Source: Chryseobacterium gleum
Lineage (GTDB): Bacteria > Bacteroidota > Bacteroidia > Flavobacteriales_F > PHOS-HE28
Assembly (NCBI GenBank): GCA_945872795.1
Contig: CAMCAZ010000011.1
Location: 1 to 64,000 of the forward strand
Length of the DNA stretch: 64,000 nt
Direction: 5' to 3'
The position numbers and the translations under genes are program-made. Positions 50,734-52,930 of this stretch are shown piece after piece (position 1 is the first letter of the stretch; every line of letters begins with the position of its first letter). The notes under the pieces are model-generated. The model saw only the letters and a program-made list of their open reading frames with translations, was not told the origin of the DNA and did not search any database.

Positions 50734-51573
50734 TCAGATCGTCAACGAGTGACGCTTGAAGCCGGTGACCACAAGGTCCTTGTCGGCGGTCTTCACGTAC
50801 TGCTCGACGCTGAGCTTGTTGTCCTTGATGAAGTCCTGGGCGAGCAGGGTGCTCTCCTTGAAGAACTTGTTCAGGCGGCCCACGGCGATCTTCTCGGCCA
50901 TGTCGGCGGGTTTCCCCTCCTGGATGGCGAGGTCCTTGCCGATCTCGAGCTCCTTGTCGATCACGCTCTGGGGTGTGCTGCCCTTGTCCAGTGCGATGGG
51001 CGCCATGGCGGCCACCTGCATGGCCACGTCCTTGGCCACACCTTCGAAACCGGGCTTGCTCAGACCGACCAGACTGGCCACCTTGTTACCGGGGTGGTTG
51101 TAGGCGTATACGAAGCCGGCGGTGAGGCCATGACAGGCGCTCACATCGATCTTCTCACCGATCACGCCGGTCTGCTCGATGAGCTTCTCGGCGATCGTCT
51201 GTCCGTTGCTGTCGTAGGCGGCGGACTTCAGCGCTTCGATGCTTTCAGCGCCTTTCTCCAAAGCGATGGCGGCGATGCGCTCGGCCATGGCGGTGAAGTC
51301 GGCGTTCTTGGCCACGAAGTCGGTCTCGCAGTTCACGCATACCAGCACACCCTTGGTACCATCGGCGGTGGTGCTGGCCAGCACGAGACCTTCGGAGGCA
51401 TCGCGGTCGGCGCGCTTGGCTGCCACCTTCTGGCCCTGCTTGCGCAAGTAGTCGATGGCGCCATCGAAGTCGCCATTGGCCTCGGTGAGGGCCTTTTTAC
51501 AGTCCATCATGCCTGCGCCCGTGATCTGGCGCAGTTTGTTCACATCGGCGGCGGTGATTGCCATGGTGCTCAT
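50734..51573 (-). CDS. tsf: Elongation factor Ts
   Basis: 279 residues (276 if started at the second ATG, MAITAADVNKL, which is the more usual family start). It is the nucleotide exchange factor for EF-Tu. Motifs: VNKLRQITGAGMMDCKKALT, AIDYLRKQGQKVAAKRADRD, VCVNCETDFVAKNADF, and near the end STLLAQDFIKDNKLSVEQYV. The start is three bases after the rpsB stop, so the two are probably translationally coupled. Confidence 0.95.
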   Translation of the reverse strand: MSTMAITAADVNKLRQITGAGMMDCKKALTEANGDFDGAIDYLRKQGQKVAAKRADRDASEGLVLASTTADGTKGVLVCVNCETDFVAKNADFTAMAERIAAIALEKGAESIEALKSAAYDSNGQTIAEKLIEQTGVIGEKIDVSACHGLTAGFVYAYNHPGNKVASLVGLSKPGFEGVAKDVAMQVAAMAPIALDKGSTPQSVIDKELEIGKDLAIQEGKPADMAEKIAVGRLNKFFKESTLLAQDFIKDNKLSVEQYVKTADKDLVVTGFKRHSLTI

Positions 51574-51576
51574 GTG

Positions 51577-52428
51577 TTACTGGTTCTCCTCATTGGTACC
51601 GGCCTCCGCAACAGCATCGGTGGCGGGTGCCACTTCCGGCGCTGCAACCTCAGCCACTGCTGCAGGTGCGGCGGCCACAGGGGCGGCCACCTCATCGGAA
51701 GCCTCGTCACCGGCCTCATCGGAAGCCTCTTCGGGAGCGTTCTTCCGCTCTTCGAGACCTTCGGTGATGGACTGGATCATGACGTTCACGATCAGCTCGA
51801 TGCTCTTGGTGGCATCATCGTTCGCGGGGATCGGGAAGTCCACCAGCGAGGGATCGCTGTTGGTATCGACCATGGCGAAGGTGGGGATGCCCAGTTTGCG
51901 GGCCTCGGCCACGGCGATGTGCTCCTTCACGATGTCCACGATGAACAGGGCGCTGGGCAGACGGGTCAGCTCGGCGATGGACCCCAGGTTCTTCTCCATC
52001 TTCTCGCGCTGGCGGCTCACCTGGAGACGCTCACGCTTGGACATGTTCTCGAACGTACCGTCGACCTTCATGCGGTCGATGGTGGCCATCTTCTTGATGG
52101 TACGGCGGATGGTGCCGAAGTTGGTGAGCATGCCACCGCTCCAACGCTCGGTCACGAAAGGCATGCCGGTGGCCTTCACTTTCTCGGCCACGATGTCCTT
52201 CGCCTGCTTCTTGGTGGCGACGAACAGGATCTTCTTTCCACTGCGGGCGATGTTCTTCATCGCTGCGGCGGCCTCCTCCAATTTCACCGCCGTCTTGTTG
52301 AGGTCGATGATGTGGATCCCCTTCTTCTCATCGAAGATGTAGGGGGCCATATTGGGGTTCCACTTGCGGCGCAGGTGGCCAAAGTGCACACCAGCGTCGA
52401 GCAATTCCTTGAATTCCAAACGAGCCAT
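51577..52428 (-). CDS. rpsB: 30S ribosomal protein S2
   Basis: 283 residues from MARLEFKELLDAGVHFGHLR. Family motifs: HFGHLRRKWNPNMAPYIFDE, FVATKKQAKDIVAEKVKATG, ERWSGGMLTNFGTIRRTIKK, PSALFIVDIVKEHIAVAEAR, PTFAMVDTNSDPSLVDFPIP. The C-terminal about 60 residues are an alanine- and glutamate-rich tail (EEASDEAGDEASDEVAAPVA), longer than in model S2 proteins. A long structured hairpin lies in the 115-base spacer upstream. Confidence 0.95.
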   Translation of the reverse strand: MARLEFKELLDAGVHFGHLRRKWNPNMAPYIFDEKKGIHIIDLNKTAVKLEEAAAAMKNIARSGKKILFVATKKQAKDIVAEKVKATGMPFVTERWSGGMLTNFGTIRRTIKKMATIDRMKVDGTFENMSKRERLQVSRQREKMEKNLGSIAELTRLPSALFIVDIVKEHIAVAEARKLGIPTFAMVDTNSDPSLVDFPIPANDDATKSIELIVNVMIQSITEGLEERKNAPEEASDEAGDEASDEVAAPVAAAPAAVAEVAAPEVAPATDAVAEAGTNEENQ

Positions 52429-52473
52429 GATACTTCTGTTTAGTTCACTTTCCTTCTTCCCGTTGATACAGGC

Positions 52474-52518
52474 ATCCCGCTGGTAGCCTCCACCGTTCGG
52501 CGGAGAGTCCAGCGGGAT
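52474..52518 (-). promoter_or_regulatory. Structured leader hairpin upstream of rpsB
   Basis: ATCCCGCTGG (52474-52483) pairs perfectly with CCAGCGGGAT (52509-52518). Inside, CTCC pairs with GGAG and CCG with CGG, across a single A-C mismatch. The element begins 45 bases upstream of the rpsB ATG and lies about 25 bases past rpsI. On the minus strand no T-tract follows, so it is not a simple terminator. An autoregulatory S2 leader or an RNA processing site are the likely explanations. Confidence 0.6.
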
Positions 52519-52543
52519 TGGATCCTGAACAAGCGCAGGGACG

Positions 52544-52930
52544 TTAACGCTTGCTGAACTGGTAACGCTTGCGCGCTTTCTTGCGACCGAACTTCTTACG
52601 TTCCACGCCACGGGGGTCGCGGGTCATAAGCTCTTCAGCCTTGAGCTTGGGTTTGTGTTCGGCGTCGACGATGACCAGTGCGCGGGCGATGCCCAGACGC
52701 ACGGCGTCCACCTGGCCGGTGATACCACCTCCGTTCACACGGACGGTGACATCGTACTTGCCCACCGTTTCGGTGAGCTTGAAGGGCTGCTGCAGTTTGA
52801 ACTGCTGCATGGTCACCGGGAAGTACTCCTGGCTTTCGCGGCCATTGACGATGATCTCGCCGGTACCCTCGGTGAGGGTTACACGAGCGACCGACGTCTT
52901 GCGGCGACCGAGGCTGATTACGGGCTCCAT
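52544..52930 (-). CDS. rpsI: 30S ribosomal protein S9
   Basis: 128 residues, complete. Motifs: ISLGRRKTSVARVTLTEGTG, VRVNGGGITGQVDAVRLGIA, and the basic tail DPRGVERKKFGRKKARKRYQ ending FSKR. It contacts tRNA at the P site with its C-terminus. The ATG is one base after the rplM stop, the standard rplM-rpsI pair. Confidence 0.97.
   Translation of the reverse strand: MEPVISLGRRKTSVARVTLTEGTGEIIVNGRESQEYFPVTMQQFKLQQPFKLTETVGKYDVTVRVNGGGITGQVDAVRLGIARALVIVDAEHKPKLKAEELMTRDPRGVERKKFGRKKARKRYQFSKR

Follow-up and report, generated by a model that had tools for sequence, protein, structure and literature searches.

The gap between rpsI and rpsB in Chryseobacterium gleum raises the question of whether a structured RNA lying there serves as a leader of rpsB and, if so, what would bind it. 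The 64-kb window (the whole stretch of DNA that was analysed) carries the operon rplM-rpsI-[element]-rpsB-tsf on its minus strand, the L13, S9, S2 and EF-Ts identities of the genes being taken from NCBIfam. An earlier note, made from the sequence alone, had placed a hairpin at 52474-52518 and proposed it as a candidate leader RNA in front of rpsB. The hairpin was found between the rpsI stop at 52544 and the rpsB ATG at 52428, with its neighbours confirmed by NCBIfam and its distance to the ATG (45 nt) as described. The extent given was too narrow: the hairpin is the central part of a conserved element of 88 nt (52530..52443), which occupies the intergenic space, beginning 13 nt past the rpsI stop and ending 14 nt short of the rpsB ATG. 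The genes and the parts of the element, all on the minus strand, are as follows.

50734..51573, minus: tsf (EF-Ts), next operon gene after rpsB (TIGR00116)
51577..52428, minus: rpsB (uS2), presumed controlled gene (TIGR01011 equivalog, 297.8 bits)
52544..52930, minus: rpsI (uS9), gene upstream of the element (NF001099)
52443..52530, minus: whole putative rpsB leader element, 88 nt, 5' end at 52530 and 3' end at 52443 (cmsearch and fold)
52526..52530, minus: P1a 5' strand GUUCA, pairing with 52443-52447 (covariation/conservation)
52523..52525, minus: 5' side of the conserved 3x3 internal loop, G-N-A (G and A invariant in 51 sequences)
52520..52522, minus: P1b 5' strand UCC (UCY), pairing with 52451-52453 (alignment)
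52509..52518, minus: P2 5' strand AUCCCGCUGG, outer stem of the earlier note (covariation)
52507..52508, minus: AC, 5' side of the conserved AC/CUA internal loop (A invariant in 51 sequences)
52487..52506, minus: P3, apical 8-bp hairpin with GAAC loop (fold and covariation)
52484..52486, minus: CUA, 3' side of the AC/CUA internal loop (invariant in 51 sequences)
52474..52483, minus: P2 3' strand CCAGCGGGAU (same evidence as the P2 5' strand)
52459..52472, minus: P4, small extra hairpin CCUG...CGGG (fold; by eye in genus sequences)
52451..52453, minus: P1b 3' strand GGA (alignment)
52448..52450, minus: 3' side of the 3x3 loop, A-N-G (A and G invariant)
52443..52447, minus: P1a 3' strand UGAAC (alignment and spacing)

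Sequence sampling and covariation tests

Regions upstream of rpsB were sampled from 38 same-genus genomes and 80 GTDB genomes. Covariance model R1 and the covariation counts were derived from 51 aligned relatives and 22 pairs. For the tree-aware null, column substitutions were replayed 30 times on random branches of an rpsB DNA tree; the procedure is a simplified, home-made version of the R-scape approach.

Structure of the element

The 45-nt hairpin, folded as the minus strand, gave -32.0 kcal/mol versus -14.6 +/- 2.9 in dinucleotide shuffles (z -6.1, 0/200). The 10-bp perfect outer stem described in the earlier note was present at 52518-52509 / 52483-52474. The one-base mismatch attributed to the inner stem disappeared on the transcribed (minus) strand, which shows 8 bp including G-U wobbles; it had arisen on the plus strand from the G-U wobble pairs of the minus-strand RNA. 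That description also lacked the closing helix P1 with its two conserved strands. Because the two ends of 52530..52443 pair (P1a), the hairpin of the earlier note forms the interior of a closed element. The 88 nt, folded alone and unconstrained, recovered the comparative structure at -44.1 kcal/mol (z -6.0). The layout is P1a (5 bp), the 3x3 loop GNA/ANG, a short P1b, the long P2, the AC/CUA loop and a variable cap, P3, with the consensus GUUYAG-N-AUCYAA - P2 - (G)AC - P3 - CUAC - P2' - UG ... RGAA-N-GURAAC, which stops a few bases short of rpsB. By cmsearch with R1 the element scored 66.6 bits (E 1.6e-13) and was the sole match in the window and in its own genome.

The covariance modelling of relatives that the earlier note had proposed as a check supported the fold; a lack of covarying pairs, named there as refuting the leader, was not observed. 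Standard pairs were formed in 94.6% of cells versus 72.8% in shuffles (22 pairs, 51 sequences), compensatory changes on both sides were found in 16 of the 22 pairs, and the pairing signal was lost when partners were shifted by one to three columns. Under the tree-aware null seven column pairs reached E < 0.05, all seven in the proposed structure (four in P2, three in P3). P2 changed on both sides in nine of its ten pairs, including the four that were significant. The sequence and length of P3 vary between species; four of its pairs changed on both sides and three were significant. A covariation-supported structure, as Eckert et al. 2020 ask of ribosomal-protein leaders, is therefore present.

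None of the P1 pairs, the third P1b pair included, was significant under the tree-aware null, since P1a and P1b are too conserved. In P1a (alignment A1, columns 1-5/88-92) 99.2% of cells were paired. Compensatory changes there comprised a U-A to C-G change at one pair, seen in 17 sequences and amounting to about one event, and a change at a second pair; the former separates the window's genus from the other relatives, the 5' strand being GUUUA in most relatives versus GUUCA in the window. Two P1b pairs were almost invariant, and the third was C-G or U-A in 37 of 51 sequences and unpaired in 13. The nearly invariant P1 is thus supported mainly by conservation, plus about two compensatory events. 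P4 appears limited to the window's genus, where it may create a three-stem junction; the genus sequences vary little, and the hairpin is proposed tentatively.

Two other local structures were considered and rejected. The alternative hairpin UUUAG-UAU-CUAAA cannot form in the window's genus, and a reading of AGUA/GAA as an SRL/loop-E motif, made by eye, does not agree with the middle loop bases, which vary freely.

Position and distribution

All 38 complete rpsB upstream regions of the window's own genus contained the element. A search of 392 genomes of the phylum with R1 gave at least 41 matches, one per genome and all in the window's class; the figure is a lower bound, some first-look candidates having been left unscored. 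Each of the 41 lay on the same strand as rpsB, 1-19 nt upstream. When the upstream sequence was read in the remaining 64 genomes of the class, 20 kept P1 and the loop consensus and 44 did not. By family, the element was present in 61/61 genomes of seven Bacteroidia families and in 0/44 of six others. In 125 elements the spacing had a standard deviation of 4.2 nt relative to the rpsB start and of 35.8 nt relative to the rpsI stop, and the median spacing between the end of P1 and the ATG was 14 nt. Since the spacing to rpsB is fixed and that to rpsI variable, the element is assigned to rpsB, not to rpsI. The consistent position upstream of a ribosomal-protein gene is another feature looked for by Eckert et al. 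2020. The element is a conserved RNA fold situated immediately 5' of rpsB in several Bacteroidia orders, and these comparative data strongly support its status as a leader.

The spacing also bears on two explanations that would tie the hairpin to the upstream genes. A transcription terminator, or the 3' end of the rplM-rpsI transcript, is suggested by a strong GC-rich hairpin 25 nt after rpsI, and an rpsI transcript end had been named by the earlier note as a finding that would undo the leader. The terminator scan gave no terminator-like site and no T-tract at the hairpin, the lack of a T-tract having been stated in that note too; the sequence that follows is GCCUGUAUCAACGGG, so that the GC-rich hairpin lacks the U run of an intrinsic terminator. 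With the anchoring to the rpsB start, and with the downstream P1 strands conserved as much as the hairpin, this explanation is disfavoured and highly improbable. A processing or stability element, such as an RNase III site at which the mRNA would be cut between rplM-rpsI and rpsB-tsf, in place of an allosteric or repressor site, would account for a long double-stranded stem between two cistrons, and a scan for sigma-70 promoters, which takes no account of those of Bacteroidota, found no internal promoter-like site. RNase III, however, needs neither the invariant loops GNA/ANG and AC/CUA nor a closing helix held at constant spacing from the rpsB start (sd 4 nt), and the element is not anchored to rpsI; the probability of a processing site is accordingly small.

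Variants and other rpsB upstream regions

R1 detected variant lineages outside its training set, at the same place before rpsB. Crocinitomicaceae-like and Flavobacteriaceae-like variants kept P1 and the GNA/ANG loop; their apical parts differed, and the AC of the AC/CUA loop was replaced. The RNAalifold consensus of this variant set (A2) recovered only P1a and P1b, because the apical alignment was poor.

Several upstream regions of other kinds were noted. Three loci of Alistipes/Rikenellaceae (L079, L088, L103) weakly showed P2-P3 with the AC/CUA loop and did not keep the closing helix P1. In one family (f5; L192, L197, L199, L200 and others) a second short hairpin, CUCCUACCGAGGUAGG-like, lay between rpsI and the leader, and in another (f11; L217, L223, L230) a different shared hairpin-like sequence, GUCCAGACU...GGUGCUGCGUA, preceded rpsB in place of the element. 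Eleven genomes of a further family (f2; L181, L184, L186, L189-L191, L210-L214) were missing the leader, had an rpsI-rpsB gap of 18-21 nt and carried a Shine-Dalgarno-like AGGAG before rpsB, which is unusual for Bacteroidia.

Other classes of the same GTDB phylum (L245-L253, L261-L280) had a different structured leader before rpsB, with P1 UACCCUG/CAGGGUA, a three-stem junction, a conserved GGGAAGUG and the tail GAGG..AACUA. Compensatory changes were seen in 12 of its 26 predicted pairs, and the loci scanned gave no Rfam match. In layout and tail it is reminiscent of the rpsB motif described by Meyer et al.; its model, R2, had no match to E. coli.

Comparison with known RNA families and leaders

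The earlier note could assign the hairpin to no known leader class, and comparison with Rfam agreed. Rfam 15, searched with the window and 31 relative loci at the gathering threshold and at relaxed E-values, returned chance matches only (miRNAs, lncRNA). The E. coli S2 leader, t44 (RF00127), is a different family: its model matched nothing in the window at E <= 10 or in relatives at E <= 1, while the E. coli rpsB leader, as positive control, was recognised as t44 with 83.5 bits.

Like the element, t44 (the rpsB motif) lies 5' of rpsB-tsf; in E. coli it is bound by uS2 and represses translation. The two differ in sequence and secondary structure, with no covariance-model match either way. The rpsB motif was described from Proteobacteria, Cyanobacteria and Firmicutes and was not reported for Bacteroidetes; it has a pseudoknot between a junction strand and a 3' extension after P1 (Meyer et al. 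2009, PMC2704228).

The element could nevertheless be a very diverged member of this widespread motif and not an independent S2 leader. The gene is the same, the ligand is likely the same, there is a loose likeness in layout, P1 being followed by a junction of variable stems, and the tails may be set side by side as GGAGGCUUAAC in t44, AGAGGUUCAAC in other classes of the phylum and GGAANGURAAC in the element. Apart from the failure of t44 in the window and relatives, R1 missed both the E. coli leader and the rpsB leaders of the other classes, and R2 missed Bacteroidia as well as E. coli. No counterpart of the pseudoknot was seen by eye, the P2-P4 junction being one base in the window and the stretch from P1 to the ATG being A-rich. 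Failure of covariance models is compatible with very distant homology. With the model tests negative in both directions, the element is kept apart from t44, and membership of its motif is considered unlikely.

Among leaders already described in Bacteroidia, the L13 r-leader (Eckert et al. 2020, PMC7247131) shares its operon and bacterial class with the element. Its regulated genes are given as rplM, rpsI and + rpsB, so that it precedes rplM and not rpsB; the element, in contrast, is internal to the operon, after rpsI and directly before rpsB, in the window and in relatives. The same study gives no rpsB leader for Bacteroidia. Its S4, S15 and S16 r-leaders of Bacteroidia/Flavobacteria are likewise structured leaders of ribosomal-protein genes in Bacteroidota, with other genes and ligands, whereas the element matches no Rfam family. 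Autoregulation of rpsU by bS21 in Flavobacterium (McNutt et al. 2023, PMC9976891) also concerns a 30S protein gene in Bacteroidia and, unlike the element, uses an extended Shine-Dalgarno sequence with no structured leader. By these sequence comparisons the putative rpsB leader is a new RNA family of an established kind; an earlier unnamed prediction may exist in published candidate lists.

Proposed function

The element is probably an autoregulatory uS2 leader of undescribed structure, repressing translation of rpsB(-tsf). In E. coli uS2 is the translational repressor of rpsB-tsf and acts through the 5' UTR (reviewed in PMC10931766); because of this, and because rpsB is the first gene downstream, uS2 is the likely ligand here. 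Free uS2, perhaps with bS1, would recognise the conserved loops, and its binding would stabilise P1. With P1 stabilised, ribosomes would be kept from the rpsB start, which follows the helix at a median distance of 14 nt; rpsB would be turned down, and tsf with it through coupling, with the upstream rplM-rpsI unaffected.

Translation in Bacteroidia starts without Shine-Dalgarno pairing, and hiding such a site therefore cannot be the mechanism. Blocked access of the ribosome or of bS1 to the A-rich stretch is more likely than a hidden Shine-Dalgarno site. The 3' strand of P1a ends 14 nt before the rpsB ATG in the window, within the usual ribosome footprint. Structure between positions -20 and +20 reduces initiation in F. 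johnsoniae (PMC6847099); from this and from the median position of the P1 end, repression would act at initiation.

Several observations count against this reading. P1, which repression would require, is nearly invariant, with some two compensatory events and no significant pair. No obvious resemblance to the 16S rRNA S2 site was apparent: a shared-word search against the 16S rRNA of the same genome, which registers word matches only, gave 9-base chance matches, none in that site. The apical part differs between lineages, and six Bacteroidia families are without the element. An rpsB leader with another ligand (EF-Ts, bS1, a different RNA-binding protein or a small molecule) would fit with tsf being the next gene and with the requirement for bS1 as companion of uS2 in E. 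coli (PMC10931766). The E. coli repressor of rpsB-tsf is nevertheless uS2 itself, for most ribosomal-protein leaders the binding protein is itself encoded by the transcript (PMC2704228), and the element lies directly before rpsB; another ligand is considered quite unlikely.

A broader and more tentative proposal, somewhat less probable than its opposite, is that S2 leaders were re-invented within one phylum, as the Bacteroidia element, as the unrelated three-stem leader of other classes and, in a third group, as Shine-Dalgarno-like control. In this view the first of these would be modular, its P1/loop core being fixed and its caps exchangeable, and would repress rpsB with no Shine-Dalgarno sequence to hide.

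Significance

S2 brings bS1 to the small ribosomal subunit. For this reason, and because initiation proceeds without Shine-Dalgarno pairing, the balance of S2 supply in Bacteroidia is of interest. A structured S2 leader across Flavobacteriales and Bacteroidales, with no Rfam family, would offer a concrete site for control of that supply. Beside the enterobacterial S2 leader there would then stand one of unrelated structure, and large numbers of genomes would gain an annotation for the rpsI-rpsB gap.
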